Shown here piece by piece: positions 1,151 to 62,900 of a DNA stretch of 64,000 nucleotides. Numbering within the stretch: the stretch's first letter is position 1; each line of letters begins with the position of its first letter. Below the pieces are notes generated by a model. That model was not told where the DNA came from. It made no database searches and worked only from the letters and a program-made list of their open reading frames with translations. The stretch is taken from contig CM077158.1 in NCBI GenBank assembly GCA_039583875.1, positions 119,223,900 through 119,287,899 of the forward strand, read 5' to 3'. Source of the DNA: Platanthera guangdongensis (lineage: Eukaryota > Streptophyta > Magnoliopsida > Asparagales > Orchidaceae). The translations under genes were made by a program, and so were the position numbers.

Positions 1151-1179
1151 CCGCCCTTTCATATTCAAACCTAGAAAGG

Positions 1180-1188
1180 TATAAATAG
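1180..1188 (+). promoter_or_regulatory. internal TATA box ahead of the extra ORF
   Basis: TATAAATAG sits after the palindrome array and about 100 bp before the ATG at 1286. The order palindrome array, TATA box, leader, ATG copies the order seen in the LTR (array 4532-5500, TATA 5638). A promoter role is inferred. Confidence 0.55.
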
Positions 1189-1285
1189 GATTTTGCCTTT
1201 GTTTGTCGACATGCTCACCAAAGTTTCGAGACCAAACTTGTGTGTCGACACCTCTCTTCTCTCCAGTCAAATTCTTCAAACCTTA

Positions 1286-4111
1286 ATGGCGCCAAAGCTC
1301 GCGGAGAACGTGAATGAAGGCTATGAACTGGTGCGACAAGCATTTGACGATGCAGAACAAGAGATCAGGGATGTCGTAACCCTAGTTGCAGACTCAGGGT
1401 TAGAATTTCTTGTTTCAGAGCCCACAAAGATCTGGAAGAAAGAAGTATTGGAATTCCTGAATGGAGCTAAAGTAGATGAATCTGGACTCAAGATAAAGTC
1501 TAGGGTTCATGGTGAAAAGGTGAAGGTCTCACCTAAAAGTTTGAGAAAGGTCTTAAATCTACCCAGGACAAAAGAAGAGGATGAAGTTACTGCTTCTAAG
1601 ACCAGAGAAGCTCTAACTTGGTATGGTCTAGATTCAAAGATGAAAATTGGTTCTGTATTCAATATGAAAGGCATGAACAGCCAGGGGAAATTTCTATCTG
1701 AGATTGTTGGAAAAGTGATCTTGAGTAAGCCTCGAGGGCATGACAGGGTCTCAGCCCATATGTTCAATCTTATGACAAGGATAATCTTCACATTGAAAAT
1801 AGATTGGTCTATTATTATCTTTGATAAGATTAAAGAAAGTCCGAAGAAGCACAATTTGGGAAGAATATTAAGTCTATATTTGACTGGTAGTATACCAGAA
1901 GTTATGACTCAAGATGTAGGCTCTAAGATCAACCATATGAGAAAGATGTACATGAGGATATTCTCTAGGTGGGACAGAGTTTTAACTAAGGAGATGCCTT
2001 CACCTGAGAAAGTAACGCCCCTAAAGAAGAAGAAGAAGACTGCCCCAGTGGCTCAGGATTCATCTAGCAGCTCTGGTAGTGAAGAGCAGGTTGTCTTTAC
2101 TCCTGATGAGGATGTAGAAGGGAATGCTGGGAAGTCTCCAGCTCACCAAGATGCTGCAGAAAAGCAAGGGGAGCTACCTCAAGCTAGCCCCATACACCAG
2201 GATACTATCCAGGGGGAGACTCTAGTTGTGGAAGAGCCAACTCCTCTTGAAAGTGAAAGAGCCACCCACCTAATCCTTGAGGTAATCACTGAGCTTAATG
2301 CTTTAGATTTCCCTATAGAGGATAATGTTTTGTCTGATTCCTTAAATATTGTTAATCAGCAAACTCAGATTGATAGTCAAGTCCCAGATGTTGTCATGGA
2401 GGACACATCTGTTACAGTTCAAGTAGTATCTGATCCAGTAGTTGATGAGCCAAGAGAATCTCCATCACTACCTCAACAAGAATTTACTATGGAAGATCTC
2501 TTACTCAACCTAGATCAAACAGACTTTGACAAGGAAAATGCTGCTGCTGAGGGGGAGAATGCTCCAGTTGAGGGGGAGCAGGTCATACTTGATGAAGAAC
2601 CTGCCAGGCAAGAACCTAAGAAGCCCAAGGAAGTTGAGGAGCTACCAAGGGAGAGGGTAGATATTGCAAGTACATAAGCATCTGAAGATGAGGAAGCTGC
2701 AAGAGCTAAGAAAAGGAAGTTCCAAGTATTTAAGAGAAGGAGCCAGAATTATAAGAAGGCCTTGCAAACTATTGCTCCACAGCCAATATCACAGCGAGCA
2801 CCATCTGTAGATTATAATTCTCTCATGGTTGCTATGCAAATAAAACTTGATGAGCACAGGAAAGCCATAGAAACATATGTGGATGAGGCGCATAAGTCCT
2901 TACAGTTTGATCTGGCCCAAGACATAAAGTCTATTAGATTTGAAATGAATCTCAATAAGAAGGAGATGACTGACTGCTTCCACAAGGGAGGGAATGCAGT
3001 GGTTTACTTGGCTACACATCAAGAGAAAATCAAAGCTCAAGTGGATGACATTGTACTGAAGCAAGGGTATGTTCTTGAAAACCAGATCAGAATGAATGAC
3101 AACTTAACAGCTTCCCACAATGCTATTGTCACAGAAATGTAGAACATAGCTACTGGACTGACTACTTCTATTGCTACTGCTAAAGCAGAGTTTGATAAAG
3201 CATTGCAAAAGAATTTAACTAATGTTACTTCTGCAATTCAAGACTCTCAGAAGTTGATAACTGAAAAACTCCAAAGGTTGAAACCTTTCTTTAAAGATGG
3301 AGTCAACTATTTGGATAACCAGGTCAGATTTCAGAAAGATGATGTAAGAGATCACATAGAAAGAGAAGTCATAAAGGGGGAGAGGGTGTTAGTCAAAGCC
3401 AGCTCTGATCATGCTAAGTGGATTTCTAATTCTATCAGAGCTACTCTTGGTTATTCTCCTTTATGTGATGATGATAATGTGGAAGAATCTGGGATACATC
3501 CTACATATCTAGGAGGGGAGCAACCTGAAGTGGCTCAAGTCATCTACCCTCCTCCAGGTTTTGATATGGTACAAGCTGAGATCCAGACTATGTATAGCCC
3601 ACCTGAGGGTAAGCAAAATGTTATTCTAGAAAAGGCGGTTCAGCCAGTATCTGAGGCTATGCAAGAAGCTCTGTAGAAAGTACAAGAAGCCAGACTGTCT
3701 AAGCAGAGGTTCAGAGAGCAAGTTGAACAAAGGCCTGACTTTGAGCAGTGGAGCCACACTTCAAGAAACATTATCTTAACTGCATGGAAAGCTGCAAAAG
3801 ATAATATTCAAGATAGAAACACATGGTTTTCTGAAATGGAGTGGAGAAAGCATGAATCAAGGCAAGAAGCCATAGTGCAATACAGGAGAAAGGCCAAGAT
3901 GGGAAAGCTACCTCCTACTGCCCAGGAGCCTAGCAAGTACTTTCTCAAGCCTTATCACTACTTTGAGAGGCAAAAGATTAAAGCTGAAGAGCTAAAGAAG
4001 AAGGAGCTGAAAGGGAAGAAGCCTGTTGATACTGAAGATGCTGAAGCTCCTATGCAAGCCAAGATTCAGTCTGGAAAAGGAATAGTGATCAAGGATGCTG
4101 AGCAAAAATAG
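1286..4111 (+). pseudogene. Sirevirus extra ORF downstream of pol (element I), three in-frame stops
   Basis: A single frame of 942 codons runs from ATG 1286 (AATGGCG context) to 4111, broken by stops at 2675, 3140 and 3674. The continuation past the first stop is supported by element II, which reads through the matching place. An upstream in-frame ATG at 1193 would translate palindrome repeats, so 1286 is preferred. Residues 1-260 carry a pattern seen in plant transposon-associated proteins (KKEVLEFL, then VHGEKVKVSPKSLRKVLNLP, then an SAHMFNLMTRII block). Residues 260-460 are acidic and low-complexity with a KKKKK stretch. The rest is charged, helix-rich and probably coiled coil, with HIEREVIKGERVLV and KYFLKPYHYFERQKIKAE shared with element II. 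I see no signal peptide or membrane segment, so the common label 'envelope-like' is not supported. Function unknown. Confidence 0.8.
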
Positions 4112-4384
4112 AATAGAATTTTATTCAGTTTACAATTATAATCTTTTGATTTTAAAAACTTTGTAAATTTTTGTAAAATGAATATGACAAGTTGATTAGA
4201 ACAATGTGTTATATGTTTAATCTATTTCATAATTATTCTGAAATGATATCTGAGTATACATGTTTTGTTTGATACATGTTTATGTTTGCCCTGTTATATA
4301 ATCCTGTTTTACATCATGCTATGATTTTATTCTGTATGGTGTATATCATTGACTAAGGGTTATGACTTCTCCAAATAGGGGGAG
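2211..4384 (+). promoter_or_regulatory. five AGGGGGAG tracts including the terminal polypurine tract (element I)
   Basis: AGGGGGAG occurs at 2211, 2550, 2571, 3375 and 4377. The last lies two bases before the LTR start and is the functional plus-strand primer by position; the others lie inside the extra ORF. Repeated upstream copies of this octamer are described for Sireviruses. Confidence 0.85.
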
Positions 4385-4386
4385 AT
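4112..4386 (+). other. AT-rich 3' untranslated region of element I
   Basis: Between the end of the extra ORF and the LTR. No coding signal. It ends in the polypurine tract. Confidence 0.7.
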
Positions 4387-4531
4387 TGTTGGGTACATTG
4401 GTTTAAATGTACCTGATTTGAAGAAGCCTCACCCTACTCAATGATATACATCAAAATGTATTTGATGTGTTTTGAGTTTAGTTGTGCAGGTCAAGTATTT
4501 GCAGGAAAAGCAGAAAAGATTATAAGTCCAT

Positions 4532-5500
4532 GTGTCGACACCCAGAGGGAAAGTGTCGATACTTAAGAAGACTTGTGTCGACACCCAGGCAAGCAGTGTC
4601 GACACTTGGAGTACTTGTGTCGACACCAGGGATGTAGAGTCGACACCAGACAGAATGTGTCGACACAAGGAGCTGTGTCGACACTCAATGAAGAAAAGTG
4701 CAGTGAAGCAGTGTCGACACTTAGCAGTTGTGTCGACACCCAGAGAAACTATGTCTACATCAGAAAGTGTCGACACTTGGAGGCTGTGTCGACACTCAGC
4801 AAAAGTCAGCAGAGTCTAAGTATAAGTGTCGACACCCAGAGCAATGTGTCGACACATAGCAGAAGAGTCAACACTTGAAGAAATTGTCGACACGAGAAAG
4901 AATGTGTCGACACTCAGCTAAAGACTCAACACTTGAAGAAAGTGTCGACACAAGAAAGAATATGTCGACACTCAACTGAAGACTCAACACTTGAAGAAAG
5001 TGTCGACAGAAGGAGCTGTGTCGACACTTAGCCAAGTTCAACAATATTCTAAGTACAAGTGTCGACACAAAGGAGAAGCATCGACACTCAGTCAAAGTCT
5101 CAACACAAGAGGATGTGTCGACACAAGGAGTTGTGTCGACACTCAACAAGTATCAACACTGAAGGCATGTGTCGACACTAAGAAGATGTGTCGACACTGA
5201 ACAAGTTCAACACATGAAGATGTGTCGACACAAAGGAGATGTGTCGAAACTTACAAGAATTCAGCAATATACTGAAGGACAAGTACTTGTGTCGACACAC
5301 ATTATCAGTGTCGACACATGAAGAAGAAGCTGTGTCGAGAAGTGAATTCTACAACACAAGGAGTTGTGTCGACATCTTGAAGGCTAGTGTCGACACTTAG
5401 TCAACTTGTGTCGACACTTGGTCTATAAGTGTCGACACTTAGTCAACTTGTGTCGACACTTGGTCTATAAGTGTCGACACTTAAAGACAGACAGTCTCGA
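4532..5500 (+). repeat. GTGTCGACAC palindrome array in the LTR (element I)
   Basis: Several dozen exact or near copies of the palindrome, spaced about 15-40 bp, often as a pair with GTGTCGACACTTAG-like flanks; two longer tandem units with a CTTGGTCTATAA flank occur near 5405-5475. The array lies upstream of the TATA box in the presumed U3. Confidence 0.93.
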
Positions 5501-5637
5501 CACTTTCAGACAGTTACAGATTTTTCAAGAACAGACTGGATGACTTGACAGCTGCCATTCCAGCCGGTCTACTGCACCTGTCAGAGTTGTCAAAAATCAG
5601 TTAGGAACCAGACCAGCCGGTTACCATGAAGAAGGCC

Positions 5638-5645
5638 TATATATA
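5638..5645 (+). promoter_or_regulatory. LTR TATA box (element I)
   Basis: TATATATA in the context GGCCTATATATAGGC, about 140 bp after the last palindrome repeats. The same array-to-TATA order is seen in the LTRs of elements II, E and F. Confidence 0.75.
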
Positions 5646-6031
5646 GGCTTATATTGTCTACAAAAACACAGATTCAACACAAATTGAACACATGATCAAC
5701 AGATCAAGTAATACAAAGAAGATCTAGCTATTCATTGAAGAATCCTGTGAAGATCTAAGTAGTTGGAGAGAGAGAGCTCCATCCAAGAACACAGCCGTTG
5801 GAACCAGGCTGAGAAGAAGGATTCAGACTTTGTTCTGAATCTTAAGTAGCAGAGATCAAGGATCAACTGCAGAGGAGATCAATCCTATTGTGTTCTACAT
5901 TCAAGAAGCTTTGAAGAAAGCCAAGTCAGATTGATCTCAGCAGAGTTCTTCTAAGAACTCATCAAGAAACTCACAACTCTTCTCTCTTTTCTCTGAGTTG
6001 TAGGGTTTACATTTTGTATTCATATTATCTT

Positions 6032-6284
6032 GTAGGATCCTTAGGGATCTGAGTTTGTAAGCCTGTAATTATAAAGGCTGAGTGTAGGGCCTGTGTGCCT
6101 GAGTGTAGGAGATTTGTATCTCCGAGTGTAGGCCTGTTGTGGCTGAGTGTAGGCATTGTGGCTGAGTGTAGGCTTTGTGAAGAAGCTGAGTGTAGGTCTT
6201 TGGAGAAGACTGAGTTGTAGGGCCTTGGGCCTGAGCTGTAGGAACCTGTTTTAGGGTTCTGAGTGTAAGATCTGAGGATCTGAG
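6032..6284 (+). other. tandem hairpin array in the LTR leader (element I)
   Basis: About eleven successive short inverted repeats, each with a different stem, separated by a conserved linker TGAGTGTAGG or TGAGTTGTAGG. Examples of stem pairs: GATCC/GGATC, AGCCT/AGGCT, GGAGAT/ATCTCC, GTCTT/AAGAC, GAACC/GGTTC, AGATC/GATCT. Unit length is about 20-28 bp. It lies downstream of the TATA box, so it would be in the genomic RNA leader and at its 3' end. The same architecture is in elements II and E. Confidence 0.85.
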
Positions 6285-6542
6285 ATAGTGGAGGAGTTTG
6301 GCCGAATCAAGTACACTACTAGATAGGTGAAGGGGGAAAGTGGATGTACCCAAACCTTGGGGAACCACTATAAACCTGTGTGTTCACTGTGTGCATGTGT
6401 TTTGCTGTGATTGCTGATTGATTGCTGTGAGAAAGTAGTTTAAATTCTGTGATATAATCTGAATACTGCCCAAAAAGTTAAAAAGATTTAAGTCACCTAT
6501 TCACCCCCCCCCCCTCTAGGTGATTTGGTACAATATCTTTCA

Positions 6543-9500
6543 CTAATCACTGCAAAAGTGAAGTCAAAAGGATGTAAATTTAAAATATAATGCAAGTACC
6601 TTAAGAGAACTCGTGAACACCATCTAATTTCTTCAATAGAAAAGTCAAAAGCAAGTCAATAATTATATAACACCGACGGTAAGGCTAACGCAGTGCGATA
6701 GCATGTTTCTCGAGAACTCACCATTTTCTTGAGAACTCACTCTTTCTCAAGAACTCAATGCCCTCGATGAAACCCCGGAGCTAACGCATCGCGGTAAGGC
6801 TAACGCCGTGCGATAACTTCTTCCTCGAGAACTCAATATTTTCTAGAGAACTCAACGCTCTCGACGCAAACCCTAGAGTTACTGCCGCGTGGTAACTAAC
6901 TAATTTCGAGCGATAATCCTCTCAACACTCAATGAACGGGGCTTTCATCTCGATATCTATACCAGACGAAAGAAGACTATCATTGGGCGATAGCTACCAG
7001 AAATTCAATTACCTGAGGGGAACATCTACTAATCTTTATAAAAGAGAATTAAAGAGCAATTAAATTAAAAATTTAATGCGAGTAACTGAAAAGAACTCGT
7101 GAACACCGACTTATTTCTACAAAAGACAAGTCAAAAGCAGGTAAATAAACATATAACAAGATTTTGTGAGGAGAACTCGTGAACACTTGATAATCTCTGT
7201 AAAAATATATGTCAAAAGTAGGTAAATTTAAAATGTAACGTGAGTACCTGAAGCGAACTCGCGAACACCTGATAATCTCAACAAAAGAGAAGTCAAAAGA
7301 AGGTAAATAAACATATAATGCGAGTACTTGAGTAGAACTCCCAAACATCTGCTAATCTCTAAAAAAGTGAATTCAAAAGTAGGTAAATAAAAATATAATG
7401 CGAGTACCTGAGGTGAACTCGGTAATATTTGTTAATCTCTGCAAAACAGAAGTCAAAACAAGGTTAATTTAAAATATAATACGTGTACCTGAAGACAACT
7501 CGCGAACACCAGATAATCTCTACAAAAGAAAAGTCAAAAACCGATAATAAATATATAACGTTAGTACCTGAGGGGAATTTGCAAACATCTATGAATATTA
7601 GCAAAAAACAATTCAAAACCATGTAAATTTAAAATATAATATGAGTACTTGAAGAGAACTCGCGAATACCTACTAATCTCTGCAAAAAAGAAGTCATAAG
7701 CATGTAAACTAATATATAATGCGAGAACTTGAGGTGAACTCACAAACACCTGCTAATCTCTGCAAAAGAGAAATCAAAGGCAGGTAAATAAACATATAAC
7801 ATGAGTATCTGAGGTGAACTTGCCAATACCAGCTAATCTCTGCCAAATAGAAGTCAAAAGTAGGTAAACTTAAAATATAACGCAAGTAACTAATGAAAAT
7901 TCGTGAACATCTGATAATCTCTGCAAAAGAGAAGTCAAGAGCAGGTATTTTTAAATTATAACATGAGTACCTGAAGAGAACTTGTCAACACCTGCTCATC
8001 TCTATAAAAGAGAAGTCAAAAGTAGTTAAATAAACAAATAACACAACTACCTATGAAGAACTTACAAACACCTACTAATCTCTGCAAAAGAGAAGTAAAA
8101 AGCAGGTAAATAAACATATAACTTGAGTACTTGAGGAGAACTCGCAAACAGCTGCTAATCTCTACAAAAGTGAAGTCAAAAGCAGATAAATAAACATATA
8201 ACCGAGTACCTGAGGTGAATTTGTGAATATTTACTAATCTTAGGAAAAGAAAAGTAAAAAGGTCGTAAATTTAAAATATAACACGTGTACCTAAATAAAA
8301 CTCGTGAACATTAGCTAGTCATTGCAAAAGAGAAGTCAAAAGCATGTAAACAAACATATATCTCAAGTAGCCGATGAGAACTCGCGAACACCTGCTAATC
8401 TATACAAAAGATAACACAAAAGTCGGTAAATTTAAAATATTACACAAGTGTGTGAACAGAACTCGTGAACACATGCTAAATTCTACAAAAGATAAGTCAA
8501 AAGCAGGTAAATAAACATATAATGCGAGTACTTAAGGTGAACTCTTGAACACCTGCTAATATATGCAAAAGAGAATTCAAAAGAAGGTAAATTTAAAATA
8601 TATTGCGAGTAACTGAAGAGAACTATCGAACAACTACTAATCTCTGCAAAAGAGACGTTAAAAGCAGGTAAATAAACATATAACATGAGTATATGAGGAG
8701 AACTCAGGAACACCTGCTAATCTCAGCAAAAGTGAAGTTAGAAGCATGTAAATAAACATATAAGGAGACTACCTGAGGTGAAATCGTGAATATTTTCTAA
8801 TCTCTGCAAAAGGGTATTCAAAAGGAGGTAAATTAAAAATATATTGCGAGTACTTGAGGTGAACTCGTGAACACCTGATAATATTTGCAAAAGAGAAGTC
8901 AAAAGCAGGTAAATTTAAAATATCATGCGAGCACCTGAAGAGAACTCACGAACACCTGTTAATCTCTACAAAAGAGAAGTCAAAAGCATGTAAATAAACA
9001 TATAACATGAGTACATAAAGAGAACATGCGAACACCTACTAATCTCTTTAAAATAGAAGTCAAAAGCAGATAAATAAAACTATAACTTTAGTACTTCAGG
9101 AGAACTCATGAACACATGCTAATATCTGAAAAAGTGAAGTCAAAAGCAGGTAAATAAACACATAATATGAGTACCTGAGGTGAAGTACCAAATATTTACT
9201 AGTCACTGCAAAAGTGAAGTCAAAAGGATGTAAATTTAAAATATAATGCAAGTACCTTAAGAGAACTCGCGAACACCATCTAATTTCTTCAATAGAAAAG
9301 TCAAAAGCAGGTCAATAATTATATAACATGACTACCTAAGGTGAGCTTGCAAATACCTGCTAATCTCTTCAAAATAGAAGTCAAAAGCAGCAAAATTTAA
9401 AATATAATGCAGGTACATGAAGAGAACTCGCGAACACCTGCTAATTTCTGCAAAAAGAGAAGTCAAACGCAGGTAAATAAAAAAATAATGCAGGAACCTG

Positions 9501-21292: not shown

Positions 21293-21709
21293 CTCAGATC
21301 CTCAGATCTTACAACTCAGAACCTTGAAAGGTCCCTACAGCTCAGACTTCAACAAGTCCTACAACTCAGATTCCTCTAGAGAACCCTACCTCAGAGTGAG
21401 TCCACACTCCTACAACTCAGGCAATTAAGACCTACCTCAGCCTTTTCCCATGCCTACAACTCAGAGAAATTAATCTCCTACCTCAAGCACTCAGCCCTAC
21501 CTCAGCCTCTACAATAGTCCTACAACTAAGAGAAAATTAATATCCTACCTCAGGCACTCAGCCCTACCTCAGCCTCTTTAACAGGCCTACAACTCAGAGA
21601 AATTAATCTCCTACCTCAAGCACTCAGCCTTACCTCAGCCTTTATAGATTTTGGCTTACAACTCGGAGAGATAACTCTCCTACAATCAGATCTATAAAAG
21701 ATCCTACAG
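21293..21709 (-). other. tandem hairpin array, 3' LTR of element II
   Basis: About nineteen short inverted repeats separated on the plus strand by CTACAACTCA or CTACCTCA linkers. Stem pairs (plus strand) include GAACC/GGTCC, GACTT/AAGTC, GAGTG/CACTC, GAGA/TCTC, GCCT/AGGC, GGC/GCC, GAGAG/CTCTC and GATC/GATC. Some stems have decayed here but are intact in the other LTR (30839-31253), for example GCCT/AGGC near 21450. Confidence 0.85.
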
Positions 21710-30578: not shown

Positions 30579-31280
30579 TGAAAGAATTGATTTTCAAGAT
30601 ATCGTAAACACCTAAAGGGGGGGGGGTGAATAGGTTCAATTCTTTTTCCTTAAGACAGATAATATTTGTACTGTTAGATCACTTATTCAGCAATTTACAC
30701 AGCATAGTTTAAAAGAAATCATAGCCAATCACAGAGTGCACACAGATTAATAGTGGTTCCCCAAGTGATGGGTACACCCACATTCCCCCTTCGCCTATCT
30801 AGCAGTGTACTAGATTCGGCCTAACTCCCTTGTTTCTTCTCAGATCCTCAGATCTTACAACTCAGAACCTTGAAAGGTCCCTACAGCTCAGACTTCAGCA
30901 TGTCCTACAACTCAGATTATTATAGAGAACCCTACGTCAGAGTGAGTCCACACTCCTACAACTCAGGCAATTAAGCCCTACCTCAGCCTTTTTCCAGGCC
31001 TACAACTCAGATAAATTAATCTCCTACCTCTGGCACTTAGCCCTACCTCAGCCTCTTCAATAGGCCTATAACTCAGAGAAATTAATCTCCTATCTCAGGC
31101 ACTCAACCCTACCTCATCCTCTTCAACTTGCCTACAACTCAGAGAAATTAATCTCCTACCTCAGTCACTCAGCCCTACCTCAGCCTTTATAGATTTAGGC
31201 TTACAACTCAGGGAGATAACTCTCCTACACTCAGATCTATAAAAGATCATACCGAGAAATTGATTAACAAACAAATATAA
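30579..31280 (-). repeat. 5' LTR of Sirevirus II, segment 1
   Basis: Starts TGAAAGAATTG on the plus strand, matching the 3' LTR. Contains the second hairpin array (30839-31253). Interrupted by element C after TATAA at 31276-31280. Confidence 0.93.
30839..31253 (-). other. tandem hairpin array, 5' LTR of element II
   Basis: Copy of 21293-21709. Stems GGC/GCC (near 30967) and GCCT/AGGC (near 30990 and 31060) are intact here where the 3' LTR has mismatches; a few others are decayed only here. Confidence 0.85.
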
Positions 31281-32531
31281 TGATGGACACAACGGCCCTC
31301 AACATGTTGAAGACAATGACGGCGTGCTTACAAAAGATATTTCTCCACCTCCAGATAAAGACTTGCGGTGCCATGATGACCATGTGGAGCGAAGCCAAAA
31401 TATCCGCCCGCGGTGCAAACCAATATATTAATATATGTTTTGTTTTATTATTATTTTATTTTGCAATGTTATTTAATTTCATGTATGATGGATGCCTATA
31501 ACCATCAATTTCTATCTTTATTTAATGTCATTAATTATTGTTTTGTTATGACATGATGGTTCCATTAGCCATCATGAGTGGTTTAATATTGTATGGTGGA
31601 GATTGATTGGTGTAGCCTATATATAAGCCTTTTCATGAAGGATTGAGTAGAGAATGAAAAAAATTGAAAGCCAAGGATTCAAAATTTGAATTTCCCCCTC
31701 CTCACTCTTCCCCTCTTGGAAAATTCATTTCCTCCTCCTCCTCTCCTATCCTCCTCTCCAAAATTTCGGCCTCCCCCTTTCTTTCCTGCCTCTCTAACTC
31801 CTCCTTTCAAATATTCGACCAAAGCCTTCCATACCTCTCCCAAAACTGGCACCTTCATCAACCACCCCAAGGACGGCTATCCTCCTCAATACAAACCCGA
31901 CCACCACCTTTCCCCTCACCAAAAAAAACGATCAACCCCTTCCTTGAAGAAATTCGGCCAAGGCCAAAGGCTTGCTGTTGTGGATTCTTAAACCCCGGCG
32001 TGAAGCGACGAAGGAGGACAAGTTCCTCTCCATCCGGCGTGACTCAGGTGGAGCCTCTGAAGGTCGAACCAAGTAGAGAGTAATCAGAATCATCCATTCT
32101 GGTTGGGAAATGAATATATCTTCTACTCTATGATTTTCCCTCTTTATAGATCTTATGGCATATGCGTGTTGCATGACTTGTGAAACGCTTGAGTTTTCGT
32201 GGCATATGCGTGTTCGTGAGGCATGGCGGCCCTCGTTTTATTTTATTGGGAGAGAAGCACCCTTGTCCGAATCTTTTGTTTTCGGTGGATTCTCTTTTGG
32301 TACAACAACGCTCGACCGAACCGTGTGGGTTCCTTTCGCTTGAGAGGAACTTGGCCTATCGCCTTGGTATTATCTTGAAGGGCTTTGAGAACTCTCCATA
32401 ATATCTGAATATTGAAAACACAAATGGTGTCATTGTTACGTTTAAGGCTTGAGCGTGGCGTGCGGGTTATCAGAGAGCATTATGTTAGTTACGTCGATCA
32501 CCAAAATGCCCAAAAGGAGTAGCCTGCATCA
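31281..32531 (+). repeat. 5' LTR of element C
   Basis: 1251 bp. A TATA-like CCTATATATAAGCC lies near 31617. Pyrimidine-rich segment about 31690-31960. Confidence 0.93.
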
Positions 32532-37199: not shown

Positions 37200-38266
37200 T
37201 ATAACCTTCACCCAGGTAGAGAGAGAAAGGGTTGAAGGTTTCTTGATCAGTTCTTGATAGATCTGATTACTTTAGATCCAACCTGTCTTAGCTTCTTCAA
37301 AGATTCTGAATTTGAACAAAGGTTGATCTTCTTGGAGATGATCTTCAATCATCTTCCTTCATTTAATTCAGATGTGGCTATGAATTCTTCTGGCAGACTT
37401 GTTCACGATCTGCCCTAAGAGACTCGTTGATTTCTGGATGAAGACTTCTATTCTTCTTCTTAGTTGTTGTCTCTTCTTGGATACTTCCAGCACTATCTAT
37501 CTGATGATAGAACATGTCTTTATATAGGCTCCATCCGAGGTTACCGGCTGATGCGGTTCATAACAACCTTCTAACAGCACTGACAGATGCAACAACTTTG
37601 TTGGTTATGACAGCTGTCAAGTCTCCAGTTACTTCATTGTACTTTGTCTCAACAGCAAAGTGTCAGGAGAATACTTCAAAGGTGTCGACACAAATAGATC
37701 ATGTGTCGCCACAACTCTTGATGATGTCGGCACAGCTCTCACAATGTCGACACAACTTCTCATTAACTTCTTGACACAACTTCAGTGGCATGTGTCAACA
37801 CAAGTCCTGTGTGTCGACACAATAACTTCTAGTCTCGACAAAGTTAGTGTCGACAGAATTCTGGTTTATGTCGACACAAGTCCTGTATGTCGACACAAGT
37901 GTTGTCGACAGAATTCTGGAAAGTGTCGACACAATTCCTGTGTGTCGACACAGTTGTTGTCGATAGATTTTCTGTGTGCTGTCACAAGTCCTGTGTGTCG
38001 ACACAATCTGGCTTGTGGTGTCGACACAGCTGTTGTCGACAGATTTTCTGTGTGTCGACACAATCTGGCTCCTGGTGTCGACACAGCCTTTCCCAAGTGT
38101 CGACACAATTTTTCTCAAGTGTCAACACTTGTACTTAGAAAGTTTTTCTGCATTTACATAACCTGCACATTGAAACTCAACACAACCTCAAATACACATT
38201 GATGAATATCATTGAGTTAGGTGAGGCTTCTCCAAATCTGGTACACATTTTCCAATGTACCCAACA
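37200..38266 (-). repeat. 5' LTR of Sirevirus II, segment 2
   Basis: Resumes after element C. Contains the TATA box (about 37519-37527) and the palindrome array (37660-38133), and ends TGTACCCAACA. Confidence 0.93.
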
Positions 38267-38682
38267 AAATCCCCAAAGGACAACTCATGCTTTGCAAGAC
38301 ACTAGAGTTATAAAAAGTATAGGAAATGTCTTTACGCTAATTAAAAAGTAGTGACTTAGTTTTGAAAGAAATGGCAAGTATGATATACTATTAATTAGGT
38401 TTTATAAATTAAAAATATCTAATATGCAACCAAGCATAAAACCTTCCCAGAGAGCAAGTACAAACAACCACAGAAAACAAGCAACTCAACAGCTTAGTAG
38501 AGTAATTAGCATTTCAAAAGAAGACCGGTAGTGGGCGCCAAGAACCTGAAACGAATCCACTGGTGAGCATGTATATCTTTACTAAAGCAAACATCCCAAG
38601 AAAATACCTCACAATGGTGAGGAAAATACGTGCAACAAGCAGTCCAGTAGCAAGCTCGGAATTTAACAGTAGGGTTTCCATT

Positions 38683-42209: not shown

Positions 42210-45200
42210 ACTATTCTAGCAGTTAATTTAAAATGTATAAACAGCTAAGGAAGAAAGGTATAAACTAGCAGTTCTACAATAGTAAGCAGTAAGGTAAACA
42301 AGTAGAGTAAAGCAACCTAGGTAGGAAAAACATTATAAGGAGTAAGTAACCTTAACTTATATGAATGTCCATACAAACTTATAATTTAAGGGGTCTTCTG
42401 CAAGGCTCCCATCATATAAAAGTCTCATATCAATTTATACGTTGGGGTGTTGGTTGTATGCAAGTATGAGTGTAGTGATATGCTATATCATGATTCATGC
42501 AAGTGCACCTCATGCACACGACTCTTTGCGTACAGACCTTTAGTTCCCCCTATTTGGGAAGCTAGCTTCACTCCCAAGAACCTCCGTAGTGGCAAACAAA
42601 GATAGTGGGTCAGGCCCCCACTCCTAGGAGGTTATCCACACTATCAGGCCTAGCCCTTATGTATGCCTCTAGAAGGACACAACCTAGAGTCTCTGCGTAC
42701 TATGCTGGCCATATCTACCAGACTATCCCTGGCCAAGTGTCCCACTCTATCGAGTCAATTTATCGATGTCGGTGTGAATGATTGTCCGATATCGAAGACC
42801 CACCACCTTATATTTTTCGAATTCAAATCCTTCTGAGCCACCGACTCCCCGGACTTTCCTGTCCGTTACATCTACCTTCCGAACCTACCGTCCGGATGGC
42901 TAATCAAACTAACATAACCAACCTCCCAAGCTACCAGGGTGTGTGAATTATGAATCCCTACTTATACTAATTGCTCTATCAAACATTGGTTTTACGTATG
43001 GTTTAGGTAAGCCCAGGACTGCCCAAGGTATTCCCCGTGAAGGGCTCTCGAGGGCACTAGGAACTATGATGGTAGCTGAAGCCCATCGTTCCCTATCGCA
43101 AGGCACTTTGTATTATTAGTTGTTACCCAACTCCAAATCCCTTTAATGTTGTACTGGATTTAACCCTCGTGTATTTTGACTCTTTCTCTCACCACGGGGA
43201 AGACGATGTTTTGTCGACCCCGAGCACCTATTAACACTAGTCAAACCTCCCACTCCTCATCACGACTCCCGATGATAATCTCATTTCATTTACCAGATCA
43301 AAACACCATTATCCCAACTCCCTAGGTTCATTTTGCACCATATTATGATTTCTGCAGTTTTTACTAAACGTAGACGATCCTAAGCTATATATTGTATACA
43401 ATGGGAGGTACTCCAAATTATAATCCAAAATCCCCATAATATTTATTAGAGGTCTATCATGACATGACTATCCTAAATCCAGAAGTTTATAATTTTCCTA
43501 ATTTACTTGATAATTTATTTAATTTCCTAAGAGATCCAAATGCCTTAGTTTGAACATGAAGTACTATTTTCAGGCATGCAAAATGTTCCAAACAATTATG
43601 ATAAATACAAGACAAATATTTATTAGTAAATTCAAGGTCTCCAAATTTTCAGTAAGACTTAAACCTCTAAACATAATTTTGGAACATACTCTACATTAAA
43701 CAAATTAAAGAGAGAAGTACTGCCAATATATTTCTAAAAATTCAGAGAAAATTCTAGGACGAATATAAAGACATATAATAAGTCCAGGTCAAGTTTCACT
43801 ATTTATCATTGAATAATGAACTCTAAACTTGATTTTTCTCATAATAATCCATGTTAACAGGTTAATGAACTAAGTACAACAATTATTCATCTATAAATTG
43901 CAATAAACCTCCCATATGAGCATACTGAACTAAGACCGCTACTGGTCAAGTTTCATAATTTTCCAACAAAAAGGGCGCTCTAAATCTATTATTGATCATA
44001 TTTCCATATTTATACACTTGTGAAGTAAGTACTGGAAATTTACATCTACAAATTACAATAAATTTCATGTATGATCATAATGGTCTAACACTCACTCTGC
44101 CCCAATTTCATAATCATCAAATGGATATTAAGGTCATAATAAAAACATAATTAATTTGGCCTAATATTGGTATTGCAAAGGTGATAATAAAATTATTAAT
44201 CTGAAATTCCCAATAAAATTATCTAGGGCTTATAATGACATTATGACTACGCTACCCAAGTTTCACAAGTTTTCACAGAGTTCTAATTACCTATCGTTCA
44301 AATTAAAGTATTGTGACCTAAACTAGGGTTAGAGTTTTGATGGTTTTCTCCATCTCTAAATCTACTAAGATTTTTACCAGAGGACCTCAGCTACCCCAGA
44401 GTCCTCTCTACCAAATTTTAAATCCATTCGAGGGCATTTGACTTTATGCCCTCCACAAATCCCCAAAGTCGAAACTTAGGTTTTGAACTTGGGTCCTAGG
44501 GCAATCCTACCCCAAACAACCACATAACCCATATTAGGGTGTAAAAAGTCAAGACAATCTAGTGGTCCAAATTTCAACCTCTATTGAGGTGGTTTGGCCA
44601 CCCAATCCCACAAGGTACACTTTTGACATAAATACCCTTTTTAGTGCAAAACTAGGGTCTACTCATTTCCCAACCAAATCAACTCAAAATAAGGTGAAAA
44701 TTTATACAGAACCTCATGATGACCCTAAGGGCCACCCACCCAAATTTGGGAGTGTTTGGAGGTAATTAGGTCTCCTAATTAATTTACAATAGGATTATTA
44801 AATAATTTCTAAAACTATAGAAACCTTATCTCCAAAAATTTCCATTTTTGGATTTGACCTAGGTAAAGGTTAGAGTGACACCCTGTCCAAATTTCAGGTC
44901 AGTTGGATAAGGGATGAAATGGGGGCACTCATTTTAGTTTCTATCTAACCCTAGGTATAGACCCTACCAAAATGAGTGCCCTCGTCAAACCAGCCACCCA
45001 AATCTGTTCAAACCAATTTTAAAATAAAGTGCACTCCTAGGGATACAACTTTGATATTCATCACTTTTTCCTGTAGGTCTCCTAGGTATTTTTAATAAAT
45101 TGAAACATTAAATACAATTTCTGTGACAAAAATGAAATAATATGAAAATATATCCTAGTGTTTAAATCAATCTCCAACACGAATCTTAAAGAGCATCCAA

Positions 45201-48200
45201 GGGTGGCTGGGTCGCCTTCTAGCTCCATACGATGGCTAGGATCATCCCATCCTGGAGCCACTTCCCGGCCAAATTCCCAGCCATCCGGCCACCTCCCTTG
45301 CCGGCCACCGCCACCACCACCTCCGTTGAGGTGGAACTATTCTAGCAGTTAATTTATAATGTATAAACAGCTAAGGAAGAAAGGTATAAACTAGCAGTTC
45401 TACAATAGTAAGCAGTAAGGTAAACAAGTAGAGTAAAACAACAAAGGTAGGAAAAACATTATAAGGATTAAGTAACCTTAACTTATATGAATGCCAATGC
45501 AGACTTATAAGTTAAGGGGTCTTCTGCAAGGCTGCCATCGTATAAAAAGTCTCATACCAATTTATACGTAGGGATGTCGGTTGTATGCAAGTATGAGTGT
45601 AGTGATATGCTATGTCATGATTCATGCAAGTGTAACTCACGCACACGACTCTATGCGTACAGACCTTTAGTTCCCCCTATTTGGGTAGCTTGCTTCACTC
45701 CCAATAACCTCCGTAGTGGAAAACGGAGATAGTGGGTCGGGCCCCCCACTCCTAGGCGGGTATCCACACTACCAGGCCTAGCCATTACGTACGCCTCTAG
45801 AAGGACACAACCTAGAGTCTCCACGTACTATGTTGGTCATATCAACCAGACTTTCCCTGGCCAAGTGTCCCACACTGCCGAGTCAACGTATCGACATTGG
45901 TGTGAATGACCGTCAAATATCGAAGACCCACTACCTTATTATTTTGAATCCAAATCCTTCCGAGCCACCAGCACCCCGGACTATCCTGTTTGTTACATCT
46001 ACCTTCCGAACCTACTGTCCGGATGGCTAATCAAACTAACCTAACCAACCTCCCGAGCTACCGGGGTGTGTGAATTGTGAATCCCTACTTATACTTATTA
46101 CTCTTTCAAACATTGATTTTACTTACGTTTTAGGTTTTCCCAGGACTGCCGATGGTATTCCCCATGAAGGGCTCTCGAGGGCACTAGGAACTATGATGGT
46201 AGCTGAAGTCCATCGTTCTCTTCTGCAAGGCACTTACTATTATTGGTTATTACCCAACTCCCAATCCCTTTAATGTTGTACTGGATCTAACCCTAGTGTA
46301 TTTTGACTCTTTTTCTCTCCACTGGGAAGACGATGTTTCGTCGACCCCGAGCACCCCTTAACACTAGTCAAACATCCCACTCCTCATCACGACTCCCAAT
46401 GATAATCTCATTTCACTAATCAGATCAATACATTATTATCCAAACTCCTTAGGTTCATTTTGCACCATATTATGATTTCTACAGTTTTTACTAAACACAG
46501 ACCATCCTAGGCTATATGTTGTATATAATGGGAGGTACTCCAAATTATCATCCAAAATCTCTATAATATTTATTGGAGGTCTGTCATAACATGATTAGTC
46601 TAAATCCAGAAGTTTATAATTTTCCTAAATCCAGAGGTCTATCATGACTTGATAATTTAGTTAATTTCCTAAGAGATCCAAATGACTTAGTTTGAACATG
46701 AAGTGCTATTTTCATGCATGCAAAATGTTCCACAAAATTATGATAAGTACAAGACAACTATTTATCAGTAAATTCAATATATCCAAATTTTCAGTAAGAC
46801 TTAAACCTCTAAACATAATTTTTGAACATACTCTACATTAACCAAATTAAAGAGACAAGTACTACCAATATAATTCTAAAAATTCTGAGAAAATTCTAGG
46901 ATAAATATAAAGACATATAAACTCTCCAGGTCAAGTCTCATAATTTATCAGTGAATAATGAACTCTAAACTTGATTTTCTCATAATAATCCAAGTTAACA
47001 GGTTAATGTACTAAGTACAACAACTTTTCATCTAAAATTTCAATAAAATTCCCATATGAGCATATTGACCTAGGACCACTACTAGTCAAGTTTCATAATT
47101 TTCCAACAAAAAGGGAGCTCTAAATCTATTATTGATCATATTCCCGTATTTATACACTTGTGAAGTAAGTACTGGAAATTTACATCTACAAATTATAATA
47201 AAATTCATGTATGATCATAATGGTCTAACACTAACTCTGCCCCAATTTCATAATCATCTAATGGATATTAAGGTCATAATAAAAACATAATTAATTTGGC
47301 CTAATATTGGTATTGCAAAGGTGATACTAAAATTATTAATCTGAAATTCCCAATAAATTTATCCAAGGCTTATAAAGACATTATGACTACGCTACCCAAT
47401 TTTAACAAGTTTTCACAGAGTTCTAATTACCTATCCTTCAAATTAAAGGATTGTGACTTAAACTATGGTTACGGTTTTGAGCGGTTTATCCATCTATAAA
47501 TCTACTAAGATTTTCACCAGAGGACTTTAGCTACCCTAGAGTCCTCTCTACCAAATTTGAAATCCATACAAGGGCATTTGACCACATGCCCTTCACAAAC
47601 CCCCAAAGTCCAAACTTATTGTTTGAACTTGGGTCCTAGGGCAATCCTACCCCAAACCAACCCATGACCCATATAAGGGTGTAAAAATTCATGACAAACT
47701 AGTGAACTAAATTTCAGCCTCTGTTGAGGTGGTTTGGCCACACAATCCCATAAGGTACACTTTTGACCTAAATACCCTTTTTAGGGCAAAAATAAGGTCT
47801 CCTCATTTCCCAACTAAATCAACTCAAAATGATGTGAAAATTTATATCAAACCTCATGATGACCCTAAGGGCCACCCACAGAAATTTGGAAGGGTTTGGA
47901 GGTCATTAGGTCTCTAAATTAATTTACCCTATGATTATTAAATAATTTCTAAAACTATAGAAAAATTATCTCCAAAAATTCCTATTTTTTTACAAGACCT
48001 AGGTAAAGTTTGGAGTGACTCCCTGTCCAAATTTCAAGCCATTTGGACAAGTGATGAAATAGGGGTACTCATTTTAGCTTCTCTCCAACCCTAGGTATAG
48101 ACCCCAACAAAATCAGTGCCCTGGTCAAACAAAGCACCCAAATTTGTTCAAACCAATTTTAAAATAAGATAACTCCTAGGGCTACAACTTTCATATTCAT

Positions 48201-50736: not shown

Positions 50737-52315
50737 TGTTGGGTACATTGGGAATTATGTACTTAATTTGGAGAAGCCCCTTGTCAACTCAATGATATAT
50801 TCTAAGTTGTATTTGATGTATATTAAGTTTACATGTGCAGGACTTAAAGTGAAGAAATTTTTCTAAGCACAAATGTGTCAACACAGTTCAATTATGTTGA
50901 CACTTCTGCAGAAGCTGTGCCGAGAGAAGTCAGTTGTCTCGACACCTTGAAGACTAAGTCACCATACTTGACAAATTAAAGAGAAAAATTATGTTGAGTA
51001 AAATTATGACGATATAAACCAACTGTCTCGACGCAATACATGTTAAGTATTGTTGTCAACACATCAAACAGATTGTGTCGAGACAATCTCACAGTCTCGA
51101 CACAAGGCATAATCAAAAGATGTCAACACAGTAGATAGATTGTGTCGAGACAATCTCACTGTCTCGACACAAGGCAGAATCAGAAGGTGTCAAAATAGCA
51201 AACAGAGTGTGTCGAGACAATCTAACTATATCGACACAAGGCAGTATTAAGAGATGTTGATATTGAAAATTGGTATGTTGAGACAAGTCAACTGTCTCAA
51301 CATATTCAGCTTCTGATGAACATTATTCCAAGTTAGAATATGTCAAGACTACTAAGACATCTCAACATGTATTGAGCCATAAGGAACATCCGGATGATTA
51401 TGTTTCAGAATATGTTGAGTCGACACCAATCAAGTCAAGACATGTCAGAGCAGTCATATCAACTACGGCAGACTCATACTTCAACAGAAATAGGTCAAGG
51501 AAGATTTTGATGTATGTTGCTGACGTCATCAAATTGAATCCAGCCATCTCCAAAGCCTATAAGTAGGCAGTGTTGCCTTCACAAAAAAGTCATATACGAG
51601 AGGGGAAAATCATAAAGAAGAGCCGATAGATCAAATCAAGTAATCAGAATTTCTTGTTCTAATTTCTTCCAAGTCCTAATCAGGCGACATATTCGAGAAA
51701 GAAGAAGAATTCGAAGGACTTCAAGAAGATCCTCAGATCCTTTTTAATAGGTTGATCTGAAGGTCTAGTTGTATCTGATCCACAATATCTTCAAGGTATT
51801 CATGCCAATCAACATCAAGAAGATTGCTTTTTTAGAGAAGGAACTTTTCAGTCTGTTGATCTTTCAAGAAGAAATCCAATTGCAGCTGATTTGAAGAATC
51901 TGTGTGAACAGATATATCAGATTATAGGTTTTCGATTTTCTGAAGTTGATTTTATCCCTTTATATTATAAGAACTCCTAGAGATTTGAGTGGGTAGGAGA
52001 ATATTTTCTTTGAGATTGTAAGCCTAAATTATAAATGATGAGGTAGTGTTCTGAGGGACCTGAGGTAGGTGATTTGGGTAAATCACTGAGTTGTAGGCCT
52101 ATTTTAACACATTGCTAGTGAGGAAGAAGAGGGGAAAGTGGATGTACCCTAGATAGTGGAACCACTATAAATTCTGTGTGTGCTGTGAATTCTTCTTCAC
52201 TTGTGTTGTATGTGCCGTAATCTGGGATTATGTTAATCTCATTTAATAAGGGACAAAGAATTGCAAAGCAATTCTTATAGGTCATCTATTCACCCACCCA
52301 GGTGACTATCTACCC
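50737..52315 (+). repeat. plus-strand Sirevirus LTR F
   Basis: Starts TGTTGGGTACATTGG. It runs through a palindrome region (50870-51430), a TATA-like CTATAAGTAGG (51557) and remnants of the hairpin array (about 51970-52100), to the CTATTCACCCACCCAGGTGA tract. The usual TTTCA end is missing: the sequence passes directly into integrase of element E at about 52316. A solo or truncated LTR in opposite orientation to D and E. Confidence 0.82.
50870..51430 (+). repeat. split-palindrome array of LTR F
   Basis: Three units of about 60 bp at about 51065-51245 each hold GTGTCGAGACAATC followed by TCTCGACACAAGGCA. The arms TGTGTCGAGAC and GTCTCGACACA are perfect 11-base complements around a 9-base spacer. 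Other half sites are scattered before and after. Same TCGA core as the palindromes of elements I, II and E. Confidence 0.85.
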
Positions 52316-56180: not shown

Positions 56181-56319
56181 CTCGGATTGAAACAAATCCT
56201 ACACCTCGAAACAAAGTTCCTACAACTCGATCCACAACATGGATCTACACTCGGAAGATGAAAACTTCCTAGAACTCGGAGAACAAAGCTCCTACACTCG
56301 GAGAGTAATCTCCTACAAG
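56181..56319 (-). other. tandem hairpin array, element E
   Basis: Six inverted repeats with stem pairs GATT/AATC, GAA/TTC, ATCC/GGAT, GAAG/CTTC, GAG/CTC and GAGA/TCTC, separated on the plus strand by CTACAACTCG or CTACACTCG. The linker is CGAG instead of the TGAG of I and II. Confidence 0.82.
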
Positions 56320-59952: not shown

Positions 59953-62900
59953 TCCACGGGGGAGCAGGGATCGAGGCCTCCCGCAAGGCTAGCCTCCACA
60001 CCATGTATCGGCGAAGCGTCGCCTCTACATCCCAAACCCCGCCACCAAAGGGGAGGATCACCTTTTCCAGGAGTGATCTACCAGACCACGAGGACCCGTT
60101 CTGTGATGCGCTGGTCATCAAGACGGCCATCGAGAACTTCACCGTCTCACGGATCCTCGTGGACAACGGGAGTTCCGTCAACGTCGTCTTCAAAAAGGCG
60201 TTTGACGCAATGAAGGTGGAGGCGAGAAGAGTGCTGGCCTCGGATGGCCCCCTGTTCGGGTTTTCAGGAGAAAGGAAGGAGGTAGAAGGAGGAGTCGGAC
60301 TCCATGTCACCTTGGGGGGGCAGTCCCGAAACTGCAAGTTCGTCATTGTGGACGCCCCCAGCAGCTACAGCGCCATCTTTGGAAGGCCCCTGATCAGCGC
60401 CTTCCGCTGCGTCCCTTCATCTTTTCATCAATGCTTGAAGTTCAACACCGAGGGGGTCCAAGTCAGGGTTAGGGGAGACCCAAAGGTGGCGCGGGAGTGT
60501 TATGTCACTGCGGTGAACACCATCTCTTGGCAGGAGGGAGCCGAGGAGATGGGGCGAAGGATGGAGGAGGTCGAAGAGGAAGCTGAGGAGGAAGAGCTCG
60601 GAGAGAAGGGCTGCGCAGAGGAAGCGGCCGGAGGAAGTTTGGAGGTGACCGAGGTGAGGGTCGAGGAGGAAGCGATGGAGGAAGAGGTCCCCGCCCCGGA
60701 GAAAAGGGACGCCGAGGGATGGGCGGAGCAATCCAGGCTGGAGGCAGCTGAGGAGGTGGTGGAGCTGGAGGTGCTCACCCGAGGAGGAAGGGTGGAAAAG
60801 ATCCGCGTCAGCGGGGGGCTGACCCCGGAAGACCAGGGCAGGATGCTGGAGTGCATCCAGAAGAACGTGGACATCTTTGCCTGGAACGCCGCGGAGATGC
60901 CGGGGGTTGACGCGGATGTGGTCTGCCACCGCCTCAACTTGGACCCGGGGACACGCCACGTTCAGCAGAAAAGGAGATCCACGGCGGACAAGCTGGCGGA
61001 ACCCATCAGGGAGGAGGTGGCGAAACTTCTCAAAGCGGGCTTCGTGTCCGAAATTCAATACCTTGGCTGGGTCTCGAACGTTGTGATGGTCAAAAAGGGA
61101 GACGGCCGCTGGCGGTTGTGTATCGATTTTTCCCTTCTTAATAAAGCTTGTCCTAAGGATTGTTACCCCTTGCCTCGGATCGACGTGCTGGTTGACTCAG
61201 CCGTCGGCTTTTCTGTAATGAGTTTTTAGATGCATTTTCAGGTTACCATCAGATCAGGATGCACCCCCCGGACATAAAGGATGTCTCATTCATCACAAGC
61301 GACGGCTGCTACTGCTATAAGATGATGCCGTTCGGGCTGAAGAACGCTGGGGCCACCTACCAAAAAATGATGGATACGGTCTTCAAGGAGCAGAGGGGGA
61401 GGAATCTGGAGGTATATGTAGATGACCTCATGATCAAGAGCCGGGATGTGGACTCCCACCTCCGGGACCTGGAGGAGACCTTTGCCACCCTGCGCAAGTA
61501 CAAGATGCGATTGAACCCACTAAAATGTGTCTTCGGGGCCAGCAGGGGAAAGTTCTTGGGGCATCTCCTCACCCCCGCGGGGGTCGAGCCAAATCCAGAC
61601 AAGGTCAAGGCCATCTTGGAGCTGGGATCCCCACGGAATGCAAAGGAGGTCCAACGGTTGACAGGGAAGCTAGCAGGGCTGAGTCGCTTCCTCTCTCGGG
61701 CAGGGGAGAAGTGCTCCCCCTTCTTCAAAACACTAAGGGGGGGTCAGAGGTTTGAATGGAGCAGGGAATGTGAAGAGGCCTTCCAGGCCCTCAAGGTGCA
61801 GTTGACACAGGCTCCTCTGCTCCAAGGACCGAAGGAGGGGGAGGACCTGTTCTTGTATCTGGGGGTCGGGACGGAGGCCTTGAGCTCGGTCCTGGTTCGA
61901 GAAGAGGGGAAGAGACAGCTCCCAGTCTATTATGTGAGCCGGGTCTTGAGGAAGGCCGAGCTCCGGTATCCGATCTTGGAGAAGCTTGCGTTCGCCCTAA
62001 TCATCTCAGCTCGGAGGCTACGACCCTACTTCCAGGCACACTCAATCCGAGTGGTGACCGACCATCCCATCCGCAACATCTTTGATGGGGTGGAGCATTC
62101 AGGCAGATTGGCTAAGTGGTCGGTGGAGATGAGCGACTTCGACGTCTCCTTCGTTCCGCGGCTCTCGATCAAAGCCCAGGCGATGGCCGACTTTCTTGCT
62201 GACTATGTGGTTGAAGTGGCGGAAGGAAAACTCACTCGCCCGGCTCCTTGGAAGGTGAGGGTGGATGGAGCATCAGGAAGGCATTCCTTAGGAGTGGGAG
62301 TGATCCTAGAAAGCCCTCAAGGGACCCGGATCGAGCAAACGGTGGTGGTGCACTTTCCCATTACCAACAACCAGGCCGAGTACGAGGTCGTGATAGCAGG
62401 GCTTCGCCTGGCCAGGGAGCTTGGAGTGTCAGATGTGGAGGTCCTCACAGATTCCATGGTGGTAGCCTCCCAAATCAATGGGGAGTTCGAGGCAAGGGAG
62501 CCCACCCTATGATCATACTTGGCCAAAGTAAAGGGGATCATTGGGACTTTCCAAACTTTCGCCATCCAACATGTGCCCAGGGAAGAGAATGAACAGGCCG
62601 ATCAGTTGGCTAAGCATGGTCCCCAGGTGGGGGGCACCATCACCGACCTGTTACGCCCCTCCATCGAAGAAGGAGAACTCATGGAAATCGATCAACAAGC
62701 TTCATGGATGGATCCTGTGGTGGTTTTTCTCTCCACGGGAGAGTATCCGGAGGGGGTAGACAAGAAGAAGCTGAGGCACAAGTCAGCATACTACCTCCTC
62801 CAGGACGGGCAGCTATACAGAAAAACCCTCTCAGGGATGCTGGCCCGCTGCGTAACCGAGGGAGAAGCGCGAAGGATCTTGGAGGAGGTCCACTCCGGGG

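Follow-up and report, generated by a model that had tools for sequence, protein, structure and literature searches.

Locus and hairpin arrays

The window analysed here is a stretch of 64,000 nucleotides from the orchid Platanthera guangdongensis (assembly GCA_039583875.1, contig CM077158.1, positions 119,223,900 to 119,287,899), and our subject is an array of short hairpins in the long terminal repeat (LTR) of a Sirevirus retrotransposon, called element A below. Only the 3′ LTR of this element (TG...CA, ends set by eye) lies inside the window; the 5′ LTR lies outside, and a copy of 5900-6400 found about 11 kb upstream, at G000:C12:119218723, and 97% identical, was taken to be that 5′ LTR. A sequence-only reading had claimed about eleven hairpins joined by a conserved linker in 6032..6284. 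The hairpins were borne out: eleven units of 12-20 nt, with stems of 3-7 base pairs (bp), span 6035-6281 on the plus strand, and the linkers stand where that reading had put them. Every unit has GTA before it and GAG after it (11/11 in both cases); ten linkers consist of GAG, 1-3 nt and GTA, and GAGATA follows the last unit.

4387..6542, plus strand: 3′ LTR of element A
6032..6284, plus strand: array A, 11 hairpins, each GUA-stem-loop-stem-GAG
6035..6050, plus strand: unit 1, 6 bp
6060..6079, plus strand: unit 2, 5 bp
6087..6100, plus strand: unit 3, 4 bp
6108..6123, plus strand: unit 4, 6 bp
6131..6144, plus strand: unit 5, 4 bp
6152..6163, plus strand: unit 6, 3 bp in the array A copy, with better paired forms in relatives
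6171..6187, plus strand: unit 7, 6 bp
6195..6211, plus strand: unit 8, 7 bp
6220..6232, plus strand: unit 9, 5 bp
6241..6260, plus strand: unit 10, 7 bp
6268..6281, plus strand: unit 11, 5 bp

Four more arrays of like build, B to E, were found in other LTRs of the window.

21296..21704, minus strand: array B, 18 units, in a second Sirevirus family
30842..31249, minus strand: array C, 18 units, in the family of B
51996..52087, plus strand: array D, 4 parsed units, decayed, in a divergent family
56184..56313, minus strand: array E, 6 units, in a divergent family with G-C closing pairs

As predicted from their letters, the Sirevirus arrays are rows of short hairpins, about 6-18 per better preserved copy. 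The LTR that bears array C (30617-31287 and 37319-38274, minus strand) looks split by about 6 kb of other repeats.

Pairing within the window

If the stems were unconstrained, exchanging the 3′ arms between units should make no difference to their pairing. In array A it does make one. When the arms were permuted in 20000 swaps and inner positions only were scored (the two outermost pairs being omitted), 34 of the 38 inner positions were paired in the observed arrangement against a mean of 16.8 after swapping, and none of the swaps reached 34. Anchored base pairs numbered 58, compared with 31.5 when the unit interiors were shuffled (0/20000). Arrays B and C behaved in the same way, with 51/67 positions paired against 30.3 and 49/67 against 29.3 (0/20000 for both), as did array E (18/22 against 9.6; 55/20000), while the result for the decayed array D was weak (13/16 against 6.2, with 811/20000 swaps equally good). 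Arm swapping and local folding were used instead of whole-array free energy, because the latter barely set B and C apart from the shuffles, if at all. With pairs restricted to at most 24 nt, local folding gave z scores of -4.2 for A (0/200), -3.1 for B, -3.3 for C, -3.7 for E and -1.4 for D.

Among the 57 units of the window (not counting a further segment that the parsing gave beyond the final unit of E), the closing pair is G.T in 38, A-T in 8, G-C in 8 and another in 3, and the second pair is G-C in 49. The closing pair is G-C in 6/6 units of E and G.U in 8/11 units of A.

Covariation across the host genome

The host assembly, one plant genome of 4,245,561,818 bases, was also scanned. A sample of twenty 10-kb stretches, taken at round coordinates with their content ignored and scored for arrays of at least 3 linkers, contained two arrays (L014 and L019) with unit lists unlike those of A-E. 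Their units, parsed automatically and corrected by eye, gave 38/44 paired positions against 19.3 after arm swapping (0/20000) and 26/31 against 14.4 (3/20000), respectively. The linker pattern GAGTTGTAGG-N10-20-GAGTTGTAGG-N10-20-GAGTTGTAGG, in which only the linkers and the two leading bases of a unit are set, had 484 matches in the genome and its reversed control 0; an E-type pattern, in which two bases at the unit ends are fixed as well, had 739, and its control again 0.

About 100 of the 484 matches were listed, comprising 84 distinct strings, and these yielded 114 distinct units once repeats were omitted. Among the matches listed, 375 of 428 inner positions are paired (88%), compared with a swapped mean of 191 (45%) and a maximum of 235 in 20000 swaps; sliding the register by one or two positions gives 35-45%. 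The stems of this set are diverse: pair 3 is A-T in 61 units, G-C in 18, T-A in 16 and C-G in 7, pair 4 is G-C in 52, C-G in 22, A-T in 19 and T-A in 4, all four Watson-Crick types occur at pairs 3, 4 and 6, and the fully paired 5-bp stems come in 30 different sequences. The anchored stem measures 7 bp in 21 units, 6 bp in 33, 5 bp in 22, 4 bp in 12, 3 bp in 11, 2 bp in 6, 1 bp in 7 and 0 bp in 2.

A larger set combined the window with loci taken from the genome: 85 sequences forming 74 clusters (3 linkers or more), from which units of 11-22 nt only were kept, 344 in number. These included many near-identical copies of A and E and were collapsed to 232 distinct units. Here 715/869 inner positions are paired against 351 after permutation and, if a single unit is kept per inner triplet, 113/138 against 56. 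When mutual information was computed over 15 column pairs, the top three (1.37, 1.13 and 0.61) were the three base pairs, the next value being 0.50. The set holds 58 distinct fully paired 5-bp stems. Units matched between families by order and sequence have changed on both sides of their pairs, e.g. in the first unit at pair 6 (C-G, T-A, A-T) and in the GGAG unit at pairs 5 and 6. The claim that structure is kept while stem sequence is not, made for array A, thus held in the 232 distinct units, and since the stem letters change while pairing stays, the data suggest that the folded shape is under selection.

G.U pairs form in sense-strand RNA and A.C is their opposite-strand image, so that an excess of G.U points to the sense RNA. 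At pairs 3-5 of the set of 11-22-nt units we counted 33 G.U against 10 A.C, where swapped arms predict a ratio of 1.23:1; the 21 copies of the E family gave 20 and 8. These counts also bear on the possibility that the arrays have no function at all, tandem duplication having made the rows and template-switch correction keeping imperfect palindromes perfect. A 66-67-nt repeat gives clear evidence of local duplication in B and C, and template-switch correction does mimic covariation. However, such a process predicts that decay should leave G.U and A.C near the composition ratio, which is not what was observed, and it leaves unexplained why the feet of the hairpins are constant around a variable spacer and why arrays occupy a like place in several families; we hold it to be very unlikely. 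The G.U excess, in numbers that are modest and not independent, favours selection on a sense RNA over a DNA palindrome or mutational correction.

Feet of the hairpins and flanking structures

The conserved linker of the sequence-only reading stood as to its conservation, but not as a single linker. Among 223 linkers from 29 arrays, the spacer between GAG and GTA measures 0, 1, 2 and 3 nt in 56, 37, 126 and 4 cases, respectively, in a scan that permitted 0-3 nt only and included loci (L069-L086) preselected for 2-nt spacers. Half-linkers stand at the outer ends: in the E-type loci, GTA precedes the leading unit in 18/18 (the array of L055 extends further upstream), and GAG follows the last unit in 15/18, the other three having TAG, AAG and no match. 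Given this variable spacer and these half-linkers, the unit reads GUA-stem-loop-stem-GAG, and the linker is better read as two halves, GUA as the 5′ foot of one hairpin and GAG as the 3′ foot of its neighbour. A resemblance of the linkers to 5′ splice sites (GAG/GTAAG) was considered and dropped by inspection.

GTA feet are present in 54/57 units of the window, 18/18 of them in B, 16/18 in C and 4/4 in D. GUA opposite GA beside a helix is the sequence sign of the bulged-G or loop E module, and the array units do have GUA on one side of a helix and GA on the other.

The longer form TGTA is found at 35/57 feet, and it raises the possibility of a far-upstream poly(A) element, with many UGUA sites held single-stranded between hairpins for cleavage factor I. 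In plants, UGUA is reported to raise terminator strength, which correlates with the number of UGUA motifs (PMC11245536, as far as its text was available), and 11/11 feet of A and 5/6 of E have UGUA. Yet UGUA is not constant (10/18 in B, 8/18 in C, 1/4 in D) while GUA is, and if the poly(A) site directly follows the TATA box, as discussed below, the array would be downstream of it, which weakens this explanation further. We give it little credence.

Further hairpins flank the arrays.

6340..6368, plus strand: conserved downstream hairpin, GUGG-[AUGUA]-inner stem-[GAA]-CCAC, then UAUAAA
5967..6008, plus strand: hairpin with a pyrimidine-rich loop directly upstream of array A, seen in A, B, L014 and L019
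21771-21734, minus strand: pyrimidine-rich-loop hairpin upstream of array B

In the downstream hairpin, GUA and GAA are opposed within one hairpin, GAA being present in 17/26 distinct copies. Its region (6340-6374) also reads AUG-UAC-CC(N), a 9-codon frame to the UAA of UAUAAA in A, B, L014 and several others. The candidate of a conserved 9-codon peptide was dropped, since the frame is shifted in E-type copies, and the hairpin rather than the peptide is read as the preserved feature. Among 18 flank-extended loci of the GAGTTGTAGG pattern, at least one downstream mark (CCGA box, GUGGAUGUA hairpin, CACTATAAA or polyC) occurs in 16, and none within the stretch examined in L069 and L075. The arms of the upstream hairpin differ among A, B, L014 and L019, yet they pair; the upstream stretch of E as delimited forms no stable hairpin (-1.9 kcal/mol). 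Pairing of the linkers with the upstream hairpin was rejected: on inspection, A and L019 would allow it, whereas B and L014 would not. Another strong local hairpin, with z -5.2 in a 100-nt window, lies at 5790-5889 in the leader of element A. A search of 4300-6600 against Rfam gave nothing at the gathering threshold; with E values up to 1 there were 6 weaker matches, of which one, mir-626 (5982-6080, 22.3 of 70 bits), overlaps the array start.

Probable position in the RNA

The arrays start at similar distances downstream of the TATA box, namely 397 (A), 358 (B), 438 (D) and 369 nt (E), and the downstream position claimed earlier for array A is thereby seen in these four. A published profile of Sire LTRs places the poly(A) site at CAACAAA, close after the TATA box, with an R region of about 10 nt (PMC3601003); in what was available of this source, about 60% of the training sequences came from sorghum and R was estimated by comparison with Tnt1. 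A CAACA motif follows the TATA box after 37 (A), 57 (B) and 33 nt (E). Taken together with the published R border, this would put the array in U5. The arrays would then probably occur once per genomic RNA, in the 5′ leader between the cap and the primer binding site; a primer binding site downstream of the array was read for E.

Two roles are prompted by this position. One is translation control: the row of hairpins and a sequence poor in AUG might hold or guide scanning ribosomes, leaving part of the RNA for packaging. Besides the probable place in the leader, it has in its favour that ATG is depleted in the units (22 against 51 expected; CAT 24 against 34) and that element A has no ATG between 5692 and 6344. 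On the other hand, small-loop hairpins with stems of 4-7 bp pose little obstacle to ribosomes, several trinucleotides are depleted as much as ATG, and the leaders of B and E do contain ATGs. We consider such control rather unlikely. The other is an aid to reverse transcription, the hairpins assisting minus-strand strong-stop synthesis or strand transfer, e.g. through pausing of the reverse transcriptase or by keeping U5 open and ready to anneal. U5 is the first template copied, and the arrays probably lie there, ahead of the primer binding site read for E. However, we found no feature specific to such a role, and the conserved feet suggest recognition over mere pausing, so that we regard it as less probable still.

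Host elements

The window holds nested LTR retrotransposons of the Sirevirus kind, for which it was taken to be plant DNA. The assignment of the host element to the Sireviruses was supported by an env-like open reading frame (ORF) with adjacent palindromes, the polyC signal, the TATA box and CCHC-type gag motifs.

4532..5480, no strand assigned: U3 palindromes of known type, GTGTCGACAC repeats, upstream of the TATA box
5638..5645, plus strand: TATA box, TATATATA
6504..6514, plus strand: polyC tract, an integrase signal, close to the end of the LTR
1175..2677, plus strand: env-like ORF of element A (Pfam PF20167, 24.8 bits, below the cut-off of 45)

In element A, GTGTCGACAC palindromes are clustered upstream of the TATA box and also stand at the 5′ side of the env-like ORF (806-1251), as is characteristic of Sireviruses; E was not counted in this respect. 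The palindrome core in A is GTCGAC and not CGG-CCG, which, as far as the source goes, occurs in 12 of 13 published Sirevirus elements and is absent from Tnd-1 (PMC2829016). Both the TATA box and the polyC signal are present in A and B; the polyC signal is just CCCC in E, and none was found by the same pattern in D. One purine-rich tract at the 3′ LTR junction of element A and gag fragments with CCHC-type motifs in the window were read by eye.

The hairpins might also be a source of small RNAs, as the U3 palindromes of maize Sireviruses are. In the published accounts, so far as available, Sirevirus LTR palindromes are small-RNA hotspots, and miRNA-like structures occur in Copia LTRs (PMC10760457, PMC5311732); the motif described there is a palindrome, distinct from a hairpin array. 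Stems of 3-7 bp are moreover too short for Dicer, and this origin seems most improbable.

Three other repeats or elements were seen in the window. A long run of tandem repeats, each of nearly 80 bp, abuts the LTR of element A, from about 6534 to at least 12991, and is not an LTR repeat. Direct repeats at 42815-44194 and 45942-47334, 3.1 kb apart and 89-95% alike, are possibly another LTR pair. An ORF at 61196-62512 has reverse transcriptase and RNase H domains (Pfam) and belongs to an element unlike Sireviruses.

Evidence for a selected structure, and its possible role

We conclude that the array is almost certainly an RNA structure under selection, probably located in the untranslated leader of the genomic RNA of Sireviruses: short hairpins in a row that share the same feet (GUA 5′, GAG 3′), each with a stem sequence of its own. 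Several observations weigh against this conclusion. The sequence-only reading had proposed folding the whole segment against dinucleotide shuffles as a check, and this gave a weak signal in A (z -2.20, with 5/200 shuffles equally good) and none in B (z -0.17, 44/100) or C (z -0.69, 25/100). We read this as the weakness of the test for short hairpins in G/U-rich sequence; it is still a negative result. Nor is array A the most stable structure of its LTR: when the LTR was scanned in 100-nt windows, those in the array had z scores of -0.5 to -2.3, and the U3 palindromes reached -5.4. The anchored stem is 3 bp or less in 26/114 units, and old copies can be unpaired. Among 82 units with exactly one non-Watson-Crick position at pairs 3-5, this position is G.U in 21, A.C in 7 and another mismatch in 54; short stems end at pair 5, which by itself shows 29 T-T and 17 C-T. 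The arm-swap and 232-unit statistics ignore the kinship of units. As to the position, the R/U5 border is borrowed from other Sireviruses, and a CAACA motif is missing near the TATA box of array D. Finally, ATG is only the fifth lowest of the 64 trinucleotides in one shuffle and the ninth in the other.

What a selected structure of this kind might do is suggested by its build: constant feet, free stems, many copies and a probable position in the leader point to repeated docking of one protein. The repeated feet would be candidate docking sites, most likely for the nucleocapsid portion of the Gag that the element itself encodes, and the avidity by which the RNA of the element is selected for packaging would come from the large number of adjacent sites. 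Stems that are kept different may allow each hairpin to fold on itself rather than pair with its neighbour. We put forward this role in Gag docking and packaging tentatively, as one that may well turn out otherwise. A fuller version, which we regard as doubtful in its entirety, would have a modular row of hairpins on a common GUA/GA platform resembling loop E, with mutually non-complementary stems, forming a multivalent landing strip, probably for Gag, in Sireviruses at large. If true, it would be a new class of RNA element, with one three-dimensional docking module in many copies, each folding by itself within a single leader. Whatever its role, a strongly covarying element common to many families offers a direct handle for structure probing, for mutations that break stems and pair them again and for protein fishing. 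It is also an unusual natural case, a single RNA in which one shape recurs many times with a different sequence each time, and it could help to find out which base pairs and feet matter.

Comparison with known systems

The sequence-only reading knew of no described element of this form in Sireviruses, and this agrees with our search. In the open-licence literature on Sirevirus palindromes, on leaders and on tandem LTR hairpins, to the extent of the text available, no such array is described, but only U3 palindromes and miRNA-like structures. IMG/VR yielded no relatives when scanned with an integrase fragment or with either of two linker patterns. Two IMG/VR contigs that match the downstream hairpin (L001 1732-1769 and L002 1215-1252) were read in part as phage, with a terminator-like stretch adjoining, and were judged unrelated; a scan for this hairpin in bacterial and archaeal genomes gave 0 matches.

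The nearest likeness within the same LTRs is that of the RM palindromes of Sireviruses (Bousios et al. 2010, PMC2829016), which also are many short palindromic units. In the available text, each element has a single consensus palindrome, found for the most part upstream of the TATA box, where GTGTCGACAC also stands in our window, and the word 'hairpin' occurs 0 times in the main text. The arrays differ in having different stems on constant feet: instead of one palindrome repeated, there are the 58 distinct stems counted above, and they start 358-438 nt downstream of the TATA box (A, B, D and E) and not upstream of it. The far-upstream poly(A) element (PMC11245536, seen in part) shares with many array feet the motif UGUA, but in the arrays GUA is the more constant, and their position would be unfit if poly(A) addition directly follows the TATA box. 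The loop E or bulged-G module is similar in that GUA faces GA by a helix, and in the downstream hairpin AUGUA faces GAA; the likeness is one of sequence only, and the classical motif differs in the base before GUA and in the third base after GA.

In the plant Copia element BARE, packaging and dimerization signals have been reported, and the available part of that account has no hairpin row (PMC3735527). The hairpins of retroviral leaders (TAR, polyA and packaging), as generally described, resemble the arrays in that R/U5 and the leader are structured and expose G-rich single strands. Retroviral leaders use for this a few distinct hairpins that are conserved in sequence, whereas an array has as many as 18 units, in which the feet are constant and the stems free.
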